Origin: Rhodobiaceae bacterium
Lineage (GTDB): Bacteria; Pseudomonadota; Alphaproteobacteria; Parvibaculales; Parvibaculaceae
Length of the DNA stretch: 64,000 nucleotides
Direction of reading: 5' to 3'
Assembly: GCA_003330885.1 (NCBI GenBank)
Contig: CP030277.1
Span: 3,770,001 to 3,834,000 of the forward strand
The notes below the pieces were generated by a model. That model was not told the origin of the DNA. It saw only the letters and a program-made list of their open reading frames with translations, and did no database searches. Made by a program: the position numbers and the translations under genes. How positions within the stretch are numbered: the first letter of the stretch is position 1; every line of letters begins with the position of its first letter. Below are positions 35,722 to 44,668 of the stretch, in pieces.

Positions 35722-36639
35722 TTAGACACCCAATCCTGGCACAACGAACTTCTCAAGACCCGCCTTCATATCAGGCGGAATGGGAATGGCTTTGCGCGCA
35801 ACAAGATCAAGCGCGATAGCGACCGCTTCTGCGGTCGCCACGCATCGTCCTGTTTCCACATCAAACAGCCAATGCGCCCAGGTATAGGTTTTGTCAGTCA
35901 CTTCCTTAAGGCCACTTCTAAGGGTCAGAATATCGCCGACTTGTGGGGCATCCCGATAGACAAAGCGGTATTCGAGCGCCGCACCTCCGGTTGTGCTGTC
36001 CTTGGAGCGATCATCCCCGCGAGTTTGAGCGAGCAGATTGGGAATGGAATCTGAGACAATGCCCATGAAGCGCCGCGTCGCCAGAAAATCACCCGTCACA
36101 CACCAGTCCCGCATCACTTCGCCCTGAAATGTGGTGAGCAGTCCCATCTCTTCTGCGTCGCCAAGACTTGGGGCAGAGCGGGGCGGAGTGAGCTCCAGTC
36201 CACGAGGCCTGCCATGCGGTGGCACATCAACTTTGACGGTCTCCGCTTTGGCAATCATCGCCTTGGAGATGGGGGCCTGCGTTCGGTCTGTATCTGACCG
36301 GAGTGATGCGTGGGCAAGAAAGGTCGCAGCCACATCGCCCGACACCGTATTCACCATTTCAAAATAGCAGGTGAGCCGGTTTGCATCCGCCTCCACCACG
36401 CCTCCCCGAATAAAGATGGGGGCACCTGGGCGCTGCTCACGCAGGAAACGAATGTGATGGTCTTCAGCAACGAGGCGTGCACCTGTCCGGGCAATTTCGT
36501 CCCGCCCATGACCCAGATGAAGGCTCAGTGCGGCAAGGGCGCTGGTGGCCTTCTCGGAATAGAACTGCACATTCATGTGCCCCATACCGTCGGTTTCCCA
36601 GGTCTGAACCGAACTGCGATAAAGCTCAACAAAGCTCAT
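35722..36639 (-). CDS. Double-hotdog acyl-CoA thioesterase, copy A
   Basis: A 305-residue protein of two 4HBT-type hotdog domains. The ATG at 36639 has a GGAGAG site. Domain 1 carries the active-site motif W-E-T-D-G-M-G-H-M-N-V-Q-F-Y near residue 15. Domain 2, near residue 165, has only a weak trace of it (W-C-V-T-G-D-F-L-A-T-R-R-F), lacking the key aspartate and histidine-methionine pair. This domain probably supports structure rather than catalysis. It is the third of three adjacent related genes and is followed after 13 bases by an acyl-CoA dehydrogenase. Confidence 0.82.
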   Translation of the reverse strand: MSFVELYRSSVQTWETDGMGHMNVQFYSEKATSALAALSLHLGHGRDEIARTGARLVAEDHHIRFLREQRPGAPIFIRGGVVEADANRLTCYFEMVNTVSGDVAATFLAHASLRSDTDRTQAPISKAMIAKAETVKVDVPPHGRPRGLELTPPRSAPSLGDAEEMGLLTTFQGEVMRDWCVTGDFLATRRFMGIVSDSIPNLLAQTRGDDRSKDSTTGGAALEYRFVYRDAPQVGDILTLRSGLKEVTDKTYTWAHWLFDVETGRCVATAEAVAIALDLVARKAIPIPPDMKAGLEKFVVPGLGV

Positions 36640-36684
36640 GAAACTCTCCATTGAAGGTGGATAGGCGTATGGCGTGTGACGAAC

Positions 36685-37572
36685 TCAGCCGAGTCTGTCG
36701 CGAATTTCGGTTGGAAGGTCGACGGCCCTGCGGGTTTCTCGTGAGATGAGAAGGGCAGTGCCTTCAGAGGCTGCAGCGGCCTCGCCTGTCTCGGCATCGA
36801 ACATCCAATGCCGGTAGCGCAGCGTTTTGGAGCTCTGTGCTTCGAGCCCCGTGCGCACAAAGAGGGTTTGCCCGGCTTTCAGTTCTTTGAAATAGGCAAG
36901 GCGCATTTCGACAGTGGCGGTGGCGAGGCCCTTGGCTTTCTGTGAATGACGGTCAAGGCCTGCCGCCGCCCACATATGCCCCTGACATTCTGAGAAACGA
37001 GCCAGATAGAAACGCGAATTCATATGATCATTCGCATCGCATTCCCAACGATTGACCGCAGAGCGATTTGTTTCATGCATGCCTTTTTCCTCAGCTCGGT
37101 CGAGCGAGACGTCGCGGTCGAGAGATCCATCCGGTTGGGAGCGGGGCTGGGCAGCATCAGGGCGCTCGACCATGATTTTTTCAGCTTGGCTGCGCATAAA
37201 ATCAGTCCAGGGAACGAGCTTCCGCGCATTCAAATCGAAATGCCCGACGTCGACGACGAGGGTGGCTGAGAGAGCATCGGTGAGCGCATTGCGAACTTCC
37301 TGATAGATCCGCATGGTCTTGTTATTGAGCGATAGGGTGCCCGACCGCACAGCAACCAAATCGCTTGCGAACAGCTCTTTGTGAAACCTTATATGATGTT
37401 CAAGCGCGACATAGGTTGTCCGCTCGGTTTGCTGGTGCTCGTACCCAAGGCCCAGAAACGCCTGTTGGTGGAAAGCAGCGTCGGATGTTTTGCCCATATA
37501 GAACTGAATGTTCATATGGCCCATCTCGTCGCATTCCCACGGGTTCACATAGCCTCGATAGGTATCAATCAT
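36685..37572 (-). CDS. Double-hotdog acyl-CoA thioesterase, copy B
   Basis: A 295-residue double-hotdog protein, the best preserved of the three copies. Domain 1 has W-E-C-D-E-M-G-H-M-N-I-Q-F-Y near residue 12 and domain 2 has W-E-C-D-A-N-D-H-M-N-S-R-F-Y near 171, both with the aspartate and the H-M-N of 4-hydroxybenzoyl-CoA-type thioesterases. Both active sites may therefore work. It would hydrolyse acyl- or aryl-CoA in the cytosol. It lies between copies A and C with short gaps (45 and 23 bases) in one leftward operon. Confidence 0.85.
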   Translation of the reverse strand: MIDTYRGYVNPWECDEMGHMNIQFYMGKTSDAAFHQQAFLGLGYEHQQTERTTYVALEHHIRFHKELFASDLVAVRSGTLSLNNKTMRIYQEVRNALTDALSATLVVDVGHFDLNARKLVPWTDFMRSQAEKIMVERPDAAQPRSQPDGSLDRDVSLDRAEEKGMHETNRSAVNRWECDANDHMNSRFYLARFSECQGHMWAAAGLDRHSQKAKGLATATVEMRLAYFKELKAGQTLFVRTGLEAQSSKTLRYRHWMFDAETGEAAAASEGTALLISRETRRAVDLPTEIRDRLG

Positions 37573-37595
37573 TTCGACCCCCCAATGCAGACACG

Positions 37596-38447
37596 TCAGT
37601 CGACCTTCATAATGTAGGGCGCGAGCTTGGCACTCTCTTCATCGCTGAATGCCACTGTTTTACGGGCATCCAGGTCGAGCATCACAGCTGCAGCTTCGCC
37701 GGTTGCAACAAGTACCCCGGTTGAGGCGTCAAACAGGAAGTGGGCAAAGCGGAGGACCCGGCCCATCACTTCCACCATGGCACTTTTGCCGATAAGAACC
37801 GTTCCGGCACGCACATCCGTCAAACGATCAAGGCGCATTTCAAGCACCACCGTGCCTCGCCGCGCCTTGAGCATCGTATCGCGATCAAATCCGACCTGTT
37901 GCCAGAGATGGACTGCGCCATCGGAAAACCGGCCCATAATATGTTGCTGCCGCATGCGGCCGGTCTCATCGCAATGCTCCGGATGCACGACACCTTGGTA
38001 TATGGGGATCAGGTTTCCAGCCGCCTGATCATCCAGCTGAAGATGGGGCAACGAAGACGCGCCGGGCACGCCGCGAGGAAGCGCTTCGTCTTGCACGGGC
38101 GCATAAGGCCCGCTATCCAAATCAGAGGGAAGGTCAGTCTGGCTCGTGAGCGTCGCAGCAAGAACGCCGGTTGCAGAGTTGCGAAGCTCATGGGAGAGGA
38201 TGAGCCCTGCCTCATGTGCTCCAGATGCACGGCTCGTTACGGCGAAAATATCGCCTGCCCGCAATTCGCGATGAAAGCGAATATGATCTCGACTTGATAG
38301 GACGGGTCCGTTTTGGCCGTGAGAGACAGCATATGCACGATTGGCGTCAGATGCGGCTGCCACATAGAACTGAACGTTCATATGGCCCACTTCATCGCAG
38401 TTCCAGGTGTTGACGATGCTTTGAACGGTTTGAATAGGGTCGGTCAT
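37596..38447 (-). CDS. Double-hotdog acyl-CoA thioesterase, copy C
   Basis: A 283-residue double-hotdog protein. Domain 1 has W-N-C-D-E-V-G-H-M-N-V-Q-F-Y near residue 14. Domain 2 near 158 retains the C-D but has G-R-M-R-Q-Q-H in place of G-H-M-N, so it is partly degraded. The first thioesterase gene of the triplet; an HSL-type hydrolase gene lies about 90 bases upstream in the same direction. As with the other copies the substrate is unknown. The three copies probably arose by tandem duplication and then diverged strongly outside the motif. Confidence 0.83.
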   Translation of the reverse strand: MTDPIQTVQSIVNTWNCDEVGHMNVQFYVAAASDANRAYAVSHGQNGPVLSSRDHIRFHRELRAGDIFAVTSRASGAHEAGLILSHELRNSATGVLAATLTSQTDLPSDLDSGPYAPVQDEALPRGVPGASSLPHLQLDDQAAGNLIPIYQGVVHPEHCDETGRMRQQHIMGRFSDGAVHLWQQVGFDRDTMLKARRGTVVLEMRLDRLTDVRAGTVLIGKSAMVEVMGRVLRFAHFLFDASTGVLVATGEAAAVMLDLDARKTVAFSDEESAKLAPYIMKVD

Positions 38448-38537: not shown

Positions 38538-39515
38538 TTACTCAGTGACCTGCTTGAGAAACCCATCCATGCGTTTCACCGCTGAAGCAGCAAGTTCGCC
38601 GGGGAAAGCGACAAAGCCGTGGGCACCGCCGGGATATATTGCAAGCTCTGCGTCATTTCCAGCTGCCGCCCAACGGGCATGCATGAATAAGCTGTCGTCC
38701 AACAGTGCATCATCCGTTCCCACGCTGAAGAGAGCAGGGGGCATGCCTTTCAAATCCGCAAAGAGCGGCGAGATATCCGGGTCTGAGGCGTCAGCGCCCT
38801 TGGGAATAAAACACTCATCGAATTTGTGCAGATCATGAGTGCGCAGGATCAGATAGGGCTCATCGCCAAAGGCACGTGCACTTGGCGTCCAACGAAGATC
38901 GAACGCACCGAATACGAGATTGGCCCCGGCAAAATCCACATAGTCATGGCGGTCGCGCATGCGGAGCAGAGTGACGGCGGCCAAATGGGCACCCGCACTT
39001 TCTCCGCCGACGGTCAGCACTTCTGTGCCGAATTCAGCTTTTGCATTCGCAACCAACCAGGCGGCAGCTGTTTCGCAATCATCTGGCCCGGCTGGGTAGG
39101 GGTGCTCAGGGGCAAGACGGTACTCAACACTGACACAGGCCAGCCCGCAATTGTCGGCGATCCGCTCAAGCATCGGGTCCTGGCCGTCGGCAGACCCAAA
39201 TACCCATCCGCCACCATGAAAATGAAGGTAGACACCCTTGGGGTTTTCAGGGGCGATGATCCGCAGTTCCACGTCGCCGCCTTTGCCTGGGCCAGGGCGG
39301 GGAATGGTGCGGGTGATCGCACGCTCTGATTTTGGGACCAGTGGGAATGGACCTTCACCCCGATCACGACGGGCCCGGGCTTCTGCGACGCCAATGTCCC
39401 AATTGTCGTCGGACTTTTCCAACAGCTCGACCAAGGCACCGTTAATAGCCTTTGTCTCCGTAGAGACCGCATTTTCGTCAAAGAGCGCCGGATCGAATGG
39501 ATTTTTGCTCGCCAT
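38538..39515 (-). CDS. Alpha/beta hydrolase, HSL (GDXG) family
   Basis: A 325-residue esterase with the full HSL set: oxyanion motif H-F-H-G-G-G-W near residue 97, nucleophile in G-G-E-S-A-G near 170, acid in G-T-D-D-A-L-L near 263 and histidine in G-A-H-G-F near 295. No signal peptide. It differs from the HSL enzyme at 7644-8669, which has H-M-G-G in the oxyanion hole. It appears to head the leftward operon with three thioesterases and an acyl-CoA dehydrogenase, so it may release an acid that later becomes a CoA ester. Confidence 0.92.
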
Positions 39516-39694: not shown

Positions 39695-39901
39695 ATGGAA
39701 CCCATATGCCGCGACCGGATCGCGTCGGCTCGTTTGATGAAAGAGTATGGATTGGACAGCGAGGGCGCGCAGCGCCTCTTTTCGCTGAAAAACTGCGCAA
39801 TGGCATCCGATTGTAGTCATCGCAATGCATGCCGTGATCTCTTGGAGACTGTTTGGCAGGTCGAAAACCCGCCAAACGGCTTTTTGTCACCTTCGCCTTA
39901 G
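39695..39901 (+). CDS. Small cysteine-containing protein, function unknown
   Basis: A 68-residue protein starting at an ATG with a GGGGAGAG site 5 bases upstream, better than any start on the opposite strand, where an open frame also exists. It contains five cysteines or histidine-cysteine groups, including a cluster C-A-M-A-S-D-C-S-H-R-N-A-C (about residues 36-48) that could bind a metal or an iron-sulfur centre. The arrangement distantly recalls the DUF6455-type small proteins, but this is weak. It stands alone between two leftward genes. Confidence 0.5.
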   Translation: MEPICRDRIASARLMKEYGLDSEGAQRLFSLKNCAMASDCSHRNACRDLLETVWQVENPPNGFLSPSP

Positions 39902-39923
39902 CAGGGCCAATTAGGAGCCCATG

Positions 39924-40607
39924 CTAGTGAGCGCGAGGCACCCGACTAATTCGATCAGGGAGAGGGCGTGGAGACGTTTCACCGTTGCCCATGGTTGCTG
40001 CCACCAACTCAACAATTTCTGGGGCTGCCGTCGCCACGCTGCCAGAATTGAAAGGCGGCTCTGGCGCATATTCAATCGCGAGCTGCAACGCCTTGGCATA
40101 ATCCTCGCCTGCAATCTTAGCCGACAGATATAGTCCCATATCAATGCCAGCCGAGACACCCGCAGCGGTTATAATGTCCCCATGGTCGACCCAGCGCTCG
40201 GCGACAGGCGTTGCCCCATAACCTTCGAGAACATCATAGCGGGCCCAATGGGTCGTCGCCTTCTTGCCGTTGAGTAGCCCTGCCGCCGCCAGGATCAGGG
40301 AGCCAGTGCAGACAGAAGCATTGATTTTGGTTGTCTTCGCAATCTTGCGCACCCAGTCCATCTGATGAGGGTCGTTGCGCACTGCCTCATCGGCGAACCC
40401 GCCAGGCACAAGCAGAATGTCTGCGCTATCGACTTCATCAATGCTTTTGGGCGCATAGATGTCGATCAGGCCGTTGTCATTTGCGACCATCCCGGCCTCT
40501 TTGGCGACAAAGGTAACTTCTGCATCCGGCAGGCGACTCAAAGACTCAAATGGGCCGATGGCATCGAGCGTTGTGAAGCCGTCATAGAGGAAAATCACGA
40601 TGTGCAT
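39924..40607 (-). CDS. DJ-1/PfpI family protein
   Basis: A 227-residue protein of the class I glutamine-amidotransferase-like fold. The nucleophile cysteine lies in A-S-V-C-T-G-S near residue 97, followed by the histidine of T-H-W near 118, the arrangement of isonitrile-hydratase and AraC-N-terminal-like DJ-1 members. The ATG at 40607 is preferred to an upstream GTG because GGGAG lies 8 bases before it. Members act as hydratases, glyoxalases or chaperones; the function here is undetermined. A long inverted repeat (40653-40697) lies just upstream, before the styrene-oxide-isomerase-like gene. Confidence 0.88.
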   Translation of the reverse strand: MHIVIFLYDGFTTLDAIGPFESLSRLPDAEVTFVAKEAGMVANDNGLIDIYAPKSIDEVDSADILLVPGGFADEAVRNDPHQMDWVRKIAKTTKINASVCTGSLILAAAGLLNGKKATTHWARYDVLEGYGATPVAERWVDHGDIITAAGVSAGIDMGLYLSAKIAGEDYAKALQLAIEYAPEPPFNSGSVATAAPEIVELVAATMGNGETSPRPLPDRISRVPRAH

Positions 40608-40652
40608 GTGGCGCACTCCCTTGTTGCTGATGATGTCAATTTAGGGGGTACG

Positions 40653-40697
40653 CTGTTTGGCGGAAATGACATTCAACAGACAGTTTCCGCCAAACAG
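40653..40697. repeat. Long perfect inverted repeat
   Basis: CTGTTTGGCGGAAA (40653-40666) pairs perfectly with TTTCCGCCAAACAG (40684-40697) across 17 bases. It fills most of the gap between the isomerase-like and PfpI genes. There is no U-run on either strand, so a simple terminator is unlikely; an operator, a mobile palindrome or an mRNA processing hairpin are all possible. Confidence 0.7.
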
Positions 40698-40711
40698 GAT
40701 GCGGCGATTCT

Positions 40712-41158
40712 TTAGTCGCTGGGCTGCGAAAAGGCGGCAAGCGCCAAAACGACAAACGCAGCGATCACACCGACAATCGCAATGGAGAAAAGTGTGAAGG
40801 TGAGGGTGTTCCAATCGATGCCTGTAAAGGCGAGACCTCGTCCACCGGTCATGCCGGACACGAAGGAAGCTAGAATATTGCCCCAACCTGTCGCAATAAG
40901 ACCCCAGGTGATGATAGATGAGCGAGCTTCACCCAAGGTGAGCTGCGTGGCGGCGGCGGCGACAGCGATCATCATCATACCATTCAGCGTGCCTTCCAGA
41001 TGTGCCATGCGCCAGGCGCGTAACGCCTCAGCTTCTACTGCGCCGCCTCCGGCAGCGATGGCGTCGAGGGCCCATAAAAAGGGGACGCCCGCAGCGAGTC
41101 CCAAAATAAAAACAACGGCGCCATGTCCAATCAGCAAACTGTGATGTCGAGTTGGCAT
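40712..41158 (-). CDS. Styrene-oxide-isomerase-like membrane protein
   Basis: A 148-residue protein with four hydrophobic segments, preceded by a strong GGAGGAA site. I recognise similarity to styrene oxide isomerase StyC along the length: G-H-G near residue 11, then W-R-M-A-H-L-E-G-T-L-N-G-M-M (about 49-62), then G-W-G-N and G-R-G-L-A-F. In StyC, as I remember the structure, the histidine of the matching segment binds haem b shared between subunits and an asparagine six residues later touches the epoxide. Both (H53, N59) are kept here at the same spacing. A tyrosine after G-W-A-N in StyC is not conserved. Many distant homologues are simply annotated as membrane proteins. Confidence 0.6.
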   Translation of the reverse strand: MPTRHHSLLIGHGAVVFILGLAAGVPFLWALDAIAAGGGAVEAEALRAWRMAHLEGTLNGMMMIAVAAAATQLTLGEARSSIITWGLIATGWGNILASFVSGMTGGRGLAFTGIDWNTLTFTLFSIAIVGVIAAFVVLALAAFSQPSD

Positions 41159-41244
41159 TGTATTCCTCCGGTGATTGTCTAACTTGTCGGACTAAGAATG
41201 AAGGTCGGGGCGCTCGGGACCTCGACCCAATGGGAGATACTCAA

Positions 41245-41613
41245 ATGATCGGATACGCAACACTTGGATCGAACGACCTGGAAAAAGGTGCCAAGTTTTA
41301 TGATGACTTCCTTGGTGCCTTTGGCGGCCAGCGGGCGTTCAGCATGGATCGCATCATATTCTGGAATGATGCTAAGGGCGGCGCGATGCTTTCGCTCTGT
41401 ATTCCTTACGATGAGAAAACCGCAACACCGGGCAACGGCAACATGCTCGCACTTGCGGCTGAATCGACAGATGAAGTTGATGCAATGTATGCAAAGGCGA
41501 TTGAGCTGGGCGCAACAGACGAAGGCGAGCCTGGTGCGCGCACAGACAATTTCTACGGCGCTTACTTCCGCGACTTTGATGGCAACAAAGTCTGCTGCTT
41601 CAAATTCACCTAA
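41245..41613 (+). CDS. VOC (glyoxalase/bleomycin resistance-like) family protein
   Basis: A 122-residue single VOC module. The ATG at 41245 has a GGGAG site and begins the family directly (M-I-G-Y-A-T-L-G-S-N-D-L). The sequence ends with the usual Y-G-A-Y-F-R-D-F-D-G-N-K segment. Metal ligand positions are not obvious, and two cysteines sit near the end. VOC proteins include isomerases, dioxygenases and binding proteins; this small type is usually of unknown function. Divergent from the isomerase-like membrane gene, and followed by a good terminator. Confidence 0.85.
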   Translation: MIGYATLGSNDLEKGAKFYDDFLGAFGGQRAFSMDRIIFWNDAKGGAMLSLCIPYDEKTATPGNGNMLALAAESTDEVDAMYAKAIELGATDEGEPGARTDNFYGAYFRDFDGNKVCCFKFT

Positions 41614-41642
41614 GATATCTGTCGTCATTTGACGCCAGCCTG

Positions 41643-41672
41643 GCGGGCATCCTTGCGGTGCCCGCTTTTTTT
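41643..41672 (+). terminator. Rho-independent terminator after the VOC gene
   Basis: Stem GCGGGCA (41643-41649) / TGCCCGC (41659-41665), extended inside by CC/GG, followed by seven T. It lies 30 bases after the VOC stop codon. Confidence 0.88.
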
Positions 41673-41686
41673 GTGGATACGCATAA

Positions 41687-42982
41687 TCAGTAAGCACCCG
41701 CCCACATGTCCCAGTCGCGTGAGAGCCCAGGTCCTGCAAGGGCCCAGTTGGGGCGTGCGCCAATCAGTTTCGCGGCTGTGCTGGGAAAGTTGGTCATCAT
41801 CCGACACTGGCTCCAGTTGAGGAACCGGTACCGGTTGAGCGCCTTATTCATTTCCGGCACCGGCTTCCGACCACATAGCAATGCTTCCGCTGCTGCTGTG
41901 GCGGCAACTGCAGATCGCACCATGCCGTCGCCGGTAATGATCGGCGCGCCGCCATTGTAAATGTAAGAAAGATCGAGCGTGTCTTTCTGCCGATTGCGAA
42001 GGCCGCGCCAGGGCGAGCAGGGGACAGCAGCCTGACCCATGGTCTCGTCAATATCGTGCGGCTCCAACCCAAGCTCGCCGCCGACGCCGATGATTTCGTT
42101 GGTGAGCGCGTCATATTCACGGTGCTTGTCAAAGCTGCCTGCTTTGGCAACGCGATAGAAGATCCCGTAATAGCGCGCATCCGGTGAGAGTGGATCCTTG
42201 AAAGGATAGAGGACCGACATATCAAGTCCGCCTTCCCGGTGGATGAAGGCGCAGAACGCATCATGGTTTTCAAGCACACCCTTGGAGGCGCGCGCATTGT
42301 CGGTAAAGGTAATTTGCGAGGCGACAACGAATTCTTTGGGTGCAGGCGCTTGCCAGATAACTTCTGCATTCTCCAGCGGCTTCGGTTTGGCATTGACGAT
42401 CAAAGGCCGCTCGCCCGGTGCAAGTTCCCGCAATGCCCGCCAGTCATTCACTTCTTCTTCGATATGTTGGACGCCTGCGCGTTTTGCAAGGGCGATGAGC
42501 GCCCCAGCAAGTCGGGAATTGCGCACGCCATAGGCCAGGGGTTCTCGCGTCGAGCGATCCTTCCGCACGCCCTCACTTGTCATCCAGGTGGTGGGCCTAC
42601 GAAAAGTGTATCGGTCTCCCTCAACGTCACACAGTGTCGCCTGCTGTCGATAGGTGATCGCTTGTGTCCAATCGTCTCCATACATTTCGCGCAACACGTC
42701 GGCGCGATCAATTCCAAGAGCCGCCGCGTAATAGTCAATGCTGCGTGCGCGCAGCGTTACGCCGTTTATAAGACGTCTGCTCTCAGCGACAGGAGGCGCA
42801 GCGATGACAACACGCCCGGCAAACTCCGGTGCGCGGTTGAGGCGCGCAGCCAGCACCGCTGCGCCAATCCCATTGCCACTGATGACAACACTGTCATAGG
42901 CACAGTCTGCCTTTGGACGGGTCAACCCTTTCCAAGCAGGCAAATAGGCGTCGCGCCCTTTGATGGCGAAAGTATCGAGCAT
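41687..42982 (-). CDS. Uncharacterised FAD/NAD-dependent oxidoreductase-like protein
   Basis: A 431-residue protein. The ATG at 42982 has a GGGAGGG site. Near residue 35 the sequence V-V-I-S-G-N-G-I-G-A-A-V-L-A-A-R-L is a Rossmann dinucleotide-binding motif like those of FAD-dependent hydroxylases and cyclases, and a second glycine-rich stretch with I-I-T-G-D-G-M-V-R-S near 345 fits the second FAD contact of that group. No recognised catalytic motif follows, and I cannot place it in a named family. It is divergent from a TetR gene with two matching operators between them, so it is the likely target of that regulator. Confidence 0.65.
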   Translation of the reverse strand: MLDTFAIKGRDAYLPAWKGLTRPKADCAYDSVVISGNGIGAAVLAARLNRAPEFAGRVVIAAPPVAESRRLINGVTLRARSIDYYAAALGIDRADVLREMYGDDWTQAITYRQQATLCDVEGDRYTFRRPTTWMTSEGVRKDRSTREPLAYGVRNSRLAGALIALAKRAGVQHIEEEVNDWRALRELAPGERPLIVNAKPKPLENAEVIWQAPAPKEFVVASQITFTDNARASKGVLENHDAFCAFIHREGGLDMSVLYPFKDPLSPDARYYGIFYRVAKAGSFDKHREYDALTNEIIGVGGELGLEPHDIDETMGQAAVPCSPWRGLRNRQKDTLDLSYIYNGGAPIITGDGMVRSAVAATAAAEALLCGRKPVPEMNKALNRYRFLNWSQCRMMTNFPSTAAKLIGARPNWALAGPGLSRDWDMWAGAY

Positions 42983-42999
42983 GGGCCCTCCCTTCAAAT

Positions 43000-43039
43000 T
43001 TAGAGCTTAAACTCTAAGAAAGTAGAGCTTATACTCAAA
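43000..43039. promoter_or_regulatory. Two tandem TetR operators in a divergent promoter
   Basis: Site 1, TTAGAG-6-CTCTAA (43000-43017), is followed 22 bases on by site 2, TAGAGCTTATACTCAA (43023-43038), which shares 13 of 16 bases with site 1. The 22-base period is two turns of the helix, so two dimers would bind the same face. They lie between the flavoprotein-like and TetR genes. Confidence 0.65.
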
Positions 43040-43091
43040 AAACTGCGCGTCAAGGGGTGACACGCGGAGGCAGGACAGGTATCCAAAGCTT

Positions 43092-43817
43092 ATGGCAAAA
43101 ACAGCTGCAAACAGAGCACTCCCGGAAGAACGGGATATACCTTCCAAGGGAGCGGCGACCCGCGCCCTTATTATGGAGACAGCACTCGGCCTCTTTAATG
43201 AGGAGAACGCCAGTGATGTCAGCACCAATCAGATAGCAGCCGAGGCGGGCATTAGCCCGGGCAATCTCTATTACTATTTTCGCAACAAAGAAGAGATCAT
43301 CCGCGCTCTTTTCCCGGCCATTCGTGACGGGATTGCTGAGCCGCTCACCTATCCCAAAGGCGAACCGATTTCAGCTGAGCGCATGGCGAATGATTATGTC
43401 AGCGCGATCGAAGTGCTTTGGCGCTACCGTTTCTTTTTTTCCGACCTCATCGGGTTGGGCCAGCGCGATCCGGAACTCGGGGCAATGATCCAGACGCTGC
43501 AGGACGACACAATCGTGACCATGGCGGACATGTATCAGGACATCATGGATCAGGGTGACATGGTGCCTGTGGGCCAAAAGACGAATGAACTCTTGGCGCT
43601 CAATTCATTTCTTGTCTGGTTCAGCTGGGTCTCGTTCATGGATCGGGCTTCCGACCCACGAAAGAAGCGCGAGCAGCGCCTGGCTGATGGGGCGCTTGCC
43701 TGTCTCGCAATCATCGACCCCTATTTAAAACCGGCCTACCGCACGGCGGTGCATGAGGCGCTGGAAGCGCTCATGAACCGTCGGCAGAAGACAAAGCCTA
43801 AAACTCGGCGACGTTAG
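43092..43817 (+). CDS. TetR-family transcriptional regulator
   Basis: A 241-residue regulator. The helix-turn-helix covers about residues 22-72, with the recognition part T-N-Q-I-A-A-E-A-G-I-S-P-G-N-L-Y-Y-Y-F-R-N-K. The ligand domain ends in a very basic tail (R-R-Q-K-T-K-P-K-T-R-R-R). It is divergent from the unclassified flavoprotein gene, with two tandem operator-like repeats between them, which implies control of both genes. It overlaps the hydratase-2 gene by 4 bases at the 3' end, in convergent orientation. Confidence 0.9.
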   Translation: MAKTAANRALPEERDIPSKGAATRALIMETALGLFNEENASDVSTNQIAAEAGISPGNLYYYFRNKEEIIRALFPAIRDGIAEPLTYPKGEPISAERMANDYVSAIEVLWRYRFFFSDLIGLGQRDPELGAMIQTLQDDTIVTMADMYQDIMDQGDMVPVGQKTNELLALNSFLVWFSWVSFMDRASDPRKKREQRLADGALACLAIIDPYLKPAYRTAVHEALEALMNRRQKTKPKTRRR

Positions 43818-44668
43818 CCTGCCAGCGTGCACTTGCCATTATTGATGACCATCACGTCCCGCTCTTTCACGCGCGCCTGGAAGGAGAGCACGTTCCCGTC
43901 GCGCCACGTGTCAACGGTGATGGTTTCACCTGGATAGACCGGTGAAGAAAAGCGCACATCAAAGCCAACAATCTGCTTTGGATCATAGTCACAAACATTG
44001 GTGATGATCGCCCGACAGCAGGTGCCGTAAGTGCAGAGGCCGTGAATGATCGGCGCTGGGAAGCCGACAGCTTTTGCAAACTCCGGGTCTGCATGAAGCG
44101 GGTTTCTGTCGCCAGACAGGCGATAGAGCAGCGCCTGGTCTGGGGCGGTCGCTGCATCAAATGATTGATCAGGAGCCCGGTCCGGAATGGCATGAGGGAC
44201 CGGCGCGCCTTCCTTAGGGCCGCCAAAGCCACCATCGCCACGTGCAAAGGTGGTGGAAAGCATGGTGCACAGCGCGTCGCCACTTGCCTTTTCACGAATG
44301 CTCGTTTCGCTTGCAATCACGGCGCCTTTGTCTGCGCCTTTGTCCCAGGCACCGACCACTTTCGTGTCCACCAGAATGTCAGCAGCAACAGGGAGCGGCT
44401 TGTGCATGGTGAGCTTCTGTTCGCCATGAACGACCATGGCATAATTGATGCCGCTCTTGGCCATCGCACCGGCACCCCAGGCGATCACAGTGGACATGGT
44501 AGGCACAGTCACTAGATCTTTTTCATAAACGAAGGGCAATTCTTTTGCGTCCAGCTGGTCGCGGCCAAAGCCGACGCCTAGCGCGTAGAGCATGGTCTCC
44601 CGGTCGCCATAGGAAAATTCCTGACCTTCTGTCTTCAGGGTCATCAGTTCATCGTAATTGATCGCCAT
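43814..44668 (-). CDS. MaoC-type enoyl-CoA hydratase 2
   Basis: A 284-residue double-hotdog protein. The second half carries the hydratase-2 motif Y-R-L-S-G-D-R-N-P-L-H-A-D-P near residue 188, with the catalytic aspartate and histidine, followed by G-F-P-A-P-I-I-H-G-L-C-T-Y-G. The first half is the matching inactive hotdog that binds the acyl chain. This architecture equals the hydratase domain of the eukaryotic peroxisomal multifunctional enzyme type 2, which makes (3R)-hydroxyacyl-CoA. It probably hydrates long or bulky (for example branched or steroid side-chain) enoyl-CoA esters. Single gene, leftward. Confidence 0.92.
   Translation of the reverse strand: MAINYDELMTLKTEGQEFSYGDRETMLYALGVGFGRDQLDAKELPFVYEKDLVTVPTMSTVIAWGAGAMAKSGINYAMVVHGEQKLTMHKPLPVAADILVDTKVVGAWDKGADKGAVIASETSIREKASGDALCTMLSTTFARGDGGFGGPKEGAPVPHAIPDRAPDQSFDAATAPDQALLYRLSGDRNPLHADPEFAKAVGFPAPIIHGLCTYGTCCRAIITNVCDYDPKQIVGFDVRFSSPVYPGETITVDTWRDGNVLSFQARVKERDVMVINNGKCTLAG

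Follow-up and report, generated by a model that had tools for sequence, protein, structure and literature searches.

A Glu-type member of the styrene oxide isomerase superfamily beside the gene for a predicted FAD-monooxygenase-fold partner in a Rhodobiaceae bacterium

The window analysed here is a stretch of 64,000 nucleotides from a Rhodobiaceae bacterium (GCA_003330885.1, contig CP030277.1, positions 3,770,001 to 3,834,000). It carries a gene whose product belongs to the styrene oxide isomerase (SOI) superfamily but lies outside the StyC equivalog (Table 1). Judged from its sequence, this StyC-like protein is probably a haem protein with altered chemistry. The reading that we favour, with a confidence that falls a little short of even, is a membrane haem-b enzyme of Glu type that rearranges an oxygenated, probably epoxide, product of a neighbouring monooxygenase-fold partner to a carbonyl compound. 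The SOI kind of protein is already known; what is new here is the Glu-type clade and its partners. SOI has so far been studied as one reaction of styrene degradation. In the wider superfamily of the sampled Alphaproteobacteria, the haem site does not vary, the distal pocket comes in two exclusive versions and the possible oxygenating partner varies by clade. Since the pocket versions are mutually exclusive, the roles of the tyrosine of one and the glutamate of the other are directly testable by swapping them in SOI. The partner, for its part, is a candidate epoxidase from a family without a Pfam or NCBIfam match.

Table 1. Features of the StyC-like gene, its encoded residues and its surroundings (positions count from the first letter of the window)
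Feature	Position	Strand	Basis
SOI-superfamily (StyC-like) four-helix membrane protein, Glu type	40712..41158	-	NF045734, 8pnu match, clade profile, dN/dS
Codon of H53, haem axial ligand position of SOI (H58)	41000..41002	-	His in 60/60 rows
Codon of E55, in place of SOI Gly60	40994..40996	-	Glu in 41/41 non-Tyr rows; Gly in 19/19 Tyr rows
Codon of N59 (SOI N64)	40982..40984	-	Asn in 21/21 window-clade rows
Codon of N94 (SOI N99)	40877..40879	-	Asn in 21/21 window-clade rows
Codon of S98, where SOI has catalytic Tyr103	40865..40867	-	Ser in 21/21 window-clade rows
Codon of R107 (SOI R112; proposed haem-propionate Arg)	40838..40840	-	Arg in 21/21 window-clade rows
FAD-monooxygenase-fold partner, start probably ATG at 42982 (431 aa)	41687..42997	-	predicted fold, gene association
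VOC/glyoxalase-fold protein, divergent from StyC-like gene, between it and partner	41245..41613	+	PF00903 E 9.5e-10
DJ-1/PfpI protein, next gene downstream	39924..40616	-	PF01965 E 4.5e-30; cluster in 11/40 sequences
HSL-type alpha/beta hydrolase	38538..39515	-	PF07859 E 1.3e-51; cluster in 10/40 sequences
Three paralogous thioesterase-like genes	35722..38447	-	PF13279 E 6.3e-23 for 37599-38447; other two cluster with it
MaoC / hydratase-2-like dehydratase	43814..44668	-	PF01575 E 2.7e-29; synteny

The open reading frame begins with ATG, has a GGAGGAA ribosome-binding sequence ahead of it and encodes 148 residues. A sequence-only reading of this DNA had described a four-helix protein of that length, and the AF2 model, a single chain built from 59 family rows, agrees: it has helices at residues 3-35, 40-70, 77-104 and 116-143 and a mean pLDDT of 95.4. 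The segments which that reading had picked out as SOI-like (W49-R-M-A-H53-L-E55-G-T-L-N59-G-M-M62, G91-W-G-N94 and G106-R107-G-L-A-F111) are all present, and the likeness itself is borne out. The NCBIfam StyC model NF045734 matches the protein with 47.3 bits (E 2.2e-12), far under its equivalog cut-off of 150 bits; Pfam gave no match up to E 1. Among solved structures, the single sequence found 8pnu at E 1.4e-4 and 30tw at E 0.005. A profile comparison with StyC had been proposed as the check, and the profile of the window clade (21 rows) reached the same two SOIs at E 1.2e-10 and 7.6e-10, respectively. For the model, 8pnu was the only Foldseek match at 0.001 or below and also the best VIA row (Z 15.3, 143 aligned residues, 3.6 A, 23% identity). 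Superfamily membership thus follows from the NCBIfam, structure-search, profile and predicted-fold matches to SOI. In ten pairs of five near orthologues dN/dS was 0.03-0.08, with dS about 1 or more in several of the pairs.

Like StyC (8pnu/8pnv, 30tw; NF045734), the protein has the predicted four-helix fold, the haem histidine, equivalents of N64 and N99, the propionate arginine and a monooxygenase-fold gene nearby. It differs in its low identity in the structure alignment, in having Ser for Tyr103, Ala for Phe102 and Glu for Gly60, and in that no styABCD cluster was recognised around its gene. In PMC11374702, H58 of SOI is given as the haem ligand and N64, D95, N99 and Y103 of the adjacent subunit as lining the distal side, so that each haem is faced by the histidine of one subunit and by the asparagine and tyrosine of its neighbour. 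The common pocket that the sequence-only reading expected of H53 and N59 has to be read across two subunits accordingly. The paper gives the N99A and Y103A variants as inactive and N64A and D95A as impaired, so SOI-type chemistry is not assured with serine at site 103. For Rhodococcus SOI, PMC12502698 states that H57A and H57C lose haem and that R111 probably holds a propionate.

These positions were followed through 106 loci, originally fetched with the StyC-like window protein or the StyC model, and through the window. An ORF and HMM pass over the 107 sequences gave 112 ORF hits, 59 of them distinct, which together with the 8pnu segment make an alignment of 60 rows. Retention of the haem histidine and of the asparagine, as the sequence-only reading had it, extends to every row for H53 and to the whole window clade for N59. 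The position of R112 is Arg in 56 rows, with Lys in two and His in two of the others. All Tyr rows have Phe102 and Tyr103; elsewhere Ala, Pro or Thr stands at 102 and Ser, Ala, Thr or Pro at 103, and position 56 is Met in 41/41 non-Tyr rows. The loss of the StyC tyrosine, also noticed earlier, is real, S98 standing in the tyrosine column. Random loss of the tyrosine in one gene was ruled out, since the serine is fixed across the clade and the change accompanies Glu at position 60. The rows of the alignment are related, however, so the swap represents one or a few events kept over a long divergence, not 60 independent ones. The threonine at the position of SOI D95 carries little meaning, as Asp occurs in just one of the 19 Tyr rows, that of 8pnu.

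The tree splits the 19 Tyr rows from the 41 non-Tyr rows at SH-aLRT 99 and groups 20 rows of the window clade at 99, or 21 with one more distant row at 86; it was made by a quick method with the trait columns included, and several of its long branches are flagged. Within the order, some match at E 0.001 or better was found in 26 of 40 genomes, and the window clade in 20: all seven of its own genus and 13 of one other genus. Near relatives are carried, among named organisms, by two Rhodobiaceae MAGs, one Alphaproteobacteria MAG and Parvibaculaceae bacterium Mf 1.05b.01. The StyC model matched at E 0.001 or better in 17 of 289 genomes of the class, three of them above cut-off, and in a sample of the phylum the family profile reached 1e-6 or better in 5 of 398, two of these being weak. 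Literature searches, with limited access to subscription papers, found no description of a Tyr-less or Glu-type SOI clade, and a search pairing SOI with Parvibaculum found nothing.

The other large Tyr-less group, the Ala/Thr/Pro clade, shares with the window clade the Glu at 60, the haem histidine, the arginine and the lack of the tyrosine. It differs in having Phe at 99 and Gln, His or Asn at 64, and its usual neighbour, in 17 of 18 rows, is a PF10118-type gene and not the flavoprotein-fold gene. Two of its members are tandem Ala-type paralogues in the window's own genome (locus L087:6792-7832(-), about G000:C1:3721291-3722331). These have His at position 64, and the first starts 10 bp after a 304-aa PF10118-type gene.

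The genomic setting of the StyC-like gene only partly resembles what had been read from the sequence, which placed it next to a VOC and a PfpI protein rather than a styrene monooxygenase. Both neighbours carry the expected domains (PF00903 and PF01965), but the gene is not away from a monooxygenase-type gene, since one encoding an FAD-monooxygenase fold lies 529 bp upstream. Neither Pfam nor NCBIfam gave a match to this partner up to E 1; two of its relatives were also scanned with NCBIfam, which left one without a match and gave the other a weak, unrelated one (E 0.005). Its sequence found no credible match among solved structures, a designed TIM barrel at E 0.00087 being taken as chance, and its profile returned two rows, dihydrodipicolinate synthase (E 0.15) and tryptophan-5-halogenase (E 0.35). 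The AF2 model, built from 11 rows, has a pLDDT of 81.6 and a pTM of 0.86, the weakest of five models being at 55.3. It gave 386 Foldseek matches at 0.001 or below, led by VioD, FqzB, a halogenase and an electron-bifurcating flavoprotein, with RhStyA seventh. Styrene monooxygenase StyA (9j0h) is the top VIA row (Z 22.4, 332 residues, 3.8 A), tied within 1 Z with an indole monooxygenase, PhzS, MHPCO and HpxO among others, and the best 50 rows, mostly FAD monooxygenases, have Z 19.9-22.4 over 303-348 residues.

The model of the partner has the predicted overall fold of the class A/E FAD monooxygenases. StyA is not singled out as its kin, because other FAD monooxygenases score level, and the fold is common to many enzymes that do not epoxidise. 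Its likeness to StyA, VpIndA1, PhzS, MHPCO and HpxO is one of predicted fold (VIA Z 21-22, about 330 residues), whereas its identity to StyA, VpIndA1 and other FAD monooxygenases is 9-14% and its dinucleotide-binding glycines are degenerate. The fingerprint G-N-G-I-G-A departs from GxGxxG, and four relatives have Ser for the first Gly; FAD binding and oxygenation by the partner remain putative because of this atypical fingerprint. No reductase gene was recognised among the genes near the partner, the sole Flavin_Reduct match in the genome being far from the locus. PF17885 (Smoa_sbd) had no match in the genome, but the control also found the family nowhere, and its silence was dropped as proof that StyA is absent.

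The partner gene is present in 11 of the 40 genomes of the order; in a class sample of 385, matches at 1e-6 or better were confined to three, all of the window's genus. Each of the 11 genomes that carry it has it on the same strand as the StyC-like gene and upstream of that gene. The gap is 526-648 bp in the seven genomes of the genus, where an opposite-strand VOC gene separates the two, and 21-34 bp in four. Because the StyC-like gene so often adjoins the FAD-monooxygenase-fold gene, processing of the partner's product is probable. The StyC-like gene can nevertheless persist alone, since 9 of the 20 clade genomes are without the partner, although in G034 the contig ends 92 bp upstream and G029 is about 340 bp from a contig end. 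One neighbourhood occurs in both states: L074, set beside L076, L078 and L079, has the same surroundings and keeps the StyC-like gene, while the flavoprotein-fold gene is missing. Near two Tyr-type StyC-like genes, L094:5963-7291 and L095:4474-5877 encode a probable FAD-binding protein (weak family matches); the L094 gene was kept apart from the partner's homologues, with an hhalign probability of 0.2% against the partner profile.

A different gene takes the adjacent place in other clades. A PF10118-type gene lies within 700 bp in 17/18 Ala-type rows, 7/18 Tyr rows (the 8pnu row left out) and 2/2 rows of a small Ser/Ile type, and in 0/21 rows of the window clade; the assignment rests on one member tested by Pfam (E 2.2e-46) and, for the others, on a profile built from that member. 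Outside the window clade, 26 of 38 rows thus adjoin a PF10118-type gene, all but one on the same strand, so a putative oxygenase partner recurs across clades. The pairs were seen at L002, L028-L037, L041, L042, L045, L046, L050, L051, L061, L063-L066, L090, L105 and L106. The consensus has conserved QE..H and EE.EH motifs with a spacing like that of ferritin-like di-iron proteins, and the protein may possibly be a di-iron protein, perhaps an oxygenase; a literature search for PF10118 listed one paper. The type of partner does not follow the Tyr/Glu swap.

The favoured mechanism transfers the architecture of SOI to the window protein; we infer the haem, the trimer, the direction of E55, the substrate and the reaction. 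The protein would form a trimer with a haem wherever two subunits meet; the axial ligand would be H53 of one subunit, and R107 would hold a propionate. E55, N59, N94 and S98 of the neighbouring subunit would form the distal wall, where SOI has Gly60, N64, N99 and Y103. On an ideal helix E55 lies at 200 degrees and N59 at 240 degrees from H53, and SOI N64 lines the pocket; E55 should for these reasons face the distal side of the neighbouring haem, one turn toward the periplasm, a placement given by helix geometry and not by a distance. Ferric haem would then serve as the Lewis acid, and the oxygenated lipophilic substrate would most likely be an epoxide from the adjacent monooxygenase-fold protein. 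As this substrate is rearranged to a carbonyl compound, E55 would do the polarising or protonating for which SOI has its tyrosine. The surrounding DJ-1, VOC and CoA-ester genes may handle the product.

The same swap, Gly to Glu together with Tyr to a small residue, would also suit a haem redox enzyme, peroxidase- or peroxygenase-like or a helper of a monooxygenase, in which the distal glutamate serves as an acid-base residue and no isomerisation takes place. Haem peroxygenases with a distal Glu exist, and the title of a 2025 paper cited in PMC12502698 names unnatural peroxidase and peroxygenase activities for SOI, along with the part played by haem and tyrosine. Retention of the SOI-pocket residues N59 and N94 speaks against such an enzyme, as does the failure to recognise a peroxide source or redox partner among the neighbours tested, and we consider it rather unlikely. 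We give a still smaller chance to a non-catalytic haem protein that serves the partner as membrane anchor or electron-transfer subunit, with E55 as the sixth iron ligand. A small membrane protein encoded downstream of the partner in 11/11 genomes suits this reading, H-x-E aligns with the H-x-H of haem-copper oxidase in one alignment, and PMC12502698 refers to SOI in an anchor role; yet 9 of 20 genomes hold the StyC-like gene without any partner to anchor, and the pocket residues N59 and N94 are invariant in the clade. That the protein has lost haem altogether and plays a structural or carrier role would accord with the missing catalytic tyrosine, but is very improbable given the universal H53, the nearly universal arginine and the purifying selection.

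A bolder extension of the Glu-type reading, which we hold to be doubtful, is that the Tyr-less half of the family (41/60 rows) is a separate class of membrane haem enzymes. Gly to Glu in helix 2 and Phe-Tyr to small residues in helix 3 would put a carboxylate distal to each interface haem and leave the tyrosine pocket empty. Acid-base or oxidative chemistry would then replace, or accompany, the Tyr-assisted rearrangement of epoxides, and the clades would be wired to different putative O2-activating partners (the FAD-monooxygenase fold and PF10118). In its boldest form, the four-helix trimer would be an extant relative of the pseudo-threefold core of the haem-copper oxidases, with E55 at the place of the second haem-ligand histidine of helix X. 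Subunit I of these oxidases is built with pseudo-threefold symmetry, its haems lying between the repeats. VIA rows 2-10 for the StyC-like model are, by description and residue range, its last four helices, with Z 10.4-11.7, but MAPEG-type enzymes come next at Z 10.1 and Z 11.7 is inside the tool's stated background for helical bundles. SOI itself is reported in PMC11374702 to be without substantial structural relatives or DALI similarity, and a literature search pairing SOI with heme-copper found nothing.

Profile comparisons gave this lead marginal significance. The whole-family profile matched COX1 profiles at p 0.088, 0.062 and 0.084 (overall profile p 0.035-0.3), and its best match to a cbb3-type profile was of 14 columns outside the haem ligands (p 0.057). 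One COX1 comparison scored 21.5, against 17.1 for the reversed profile and 20.0 for the highest among 40 column shuffles. When single columns or 8-column blocks were shuffled, the observed score was reached in 1/240 cases for the Tyr clade, 6/240 for all rows, 89/240 for the Ala clade and 69/240 for the window's own Ser clade; this is a mixed picture, in which the Ser clade taken by itself does not exceed the controls. In 4/4 profile sets, which overlap and are not independent, the SOI histidine was aligned with a haem-ligand histidine of COX1, compared with 33/960 shuffles. The SOI arginine matched the PRR arginine with the Tyr-clade and all-row profiles but not with that of the Ala clade, and the Ser-clade alignment excludes it. 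Against 76 COX1-type rows, the SOI haem histidine falls on residue 394 or 76 of the genome's own COX1 (AHFH and AHGL), which we take to be the helix X and helix II haem ligands, and E55 stands opposite the second His of H-F-H. With Z values within background and such p values, no homology is claimed.

The genes around the StyC-like gene fit aldehyde or acyl-CoA handling, though weakly. The DJ-1/PfpI, hydrolase and three thioesterase-like genes all follow it downstream, and the MaoC dehydratase gene is also close. In relatives L084-L086 a MaoC gene lies directly upstream of the StyC-like gene, and a glutathione-dependent formaldehyde-activating-type gene (tested in L085) is close by. Five rows exceed the StyC cut-off, and four of these were fetched with wide flanks: a 3-hydroxyacyl-CoA dehydrogenase adjoins the StyC-like gene in L091 and L092, a gene of the aldehyde dehydrogenase cluster (one member tested) is nearby in L091-L093, and neither enzyme was found among the neighbour genes tested in L094. 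A further group was tested in L078, where an SDR, a GST, an EncFtn-like gene and a bicarbonate-transporter-type gene are among the neighbours. A promoter scan of 39800-43200 in the window found no sigma-70-like site. The VOC gene, called here from 41245, has a further in-frame ATG at 41230, and directly 3' of it, before the converging flavoprotein-fold gene, is a terminator-like hairpin with a T run (41642-41666).
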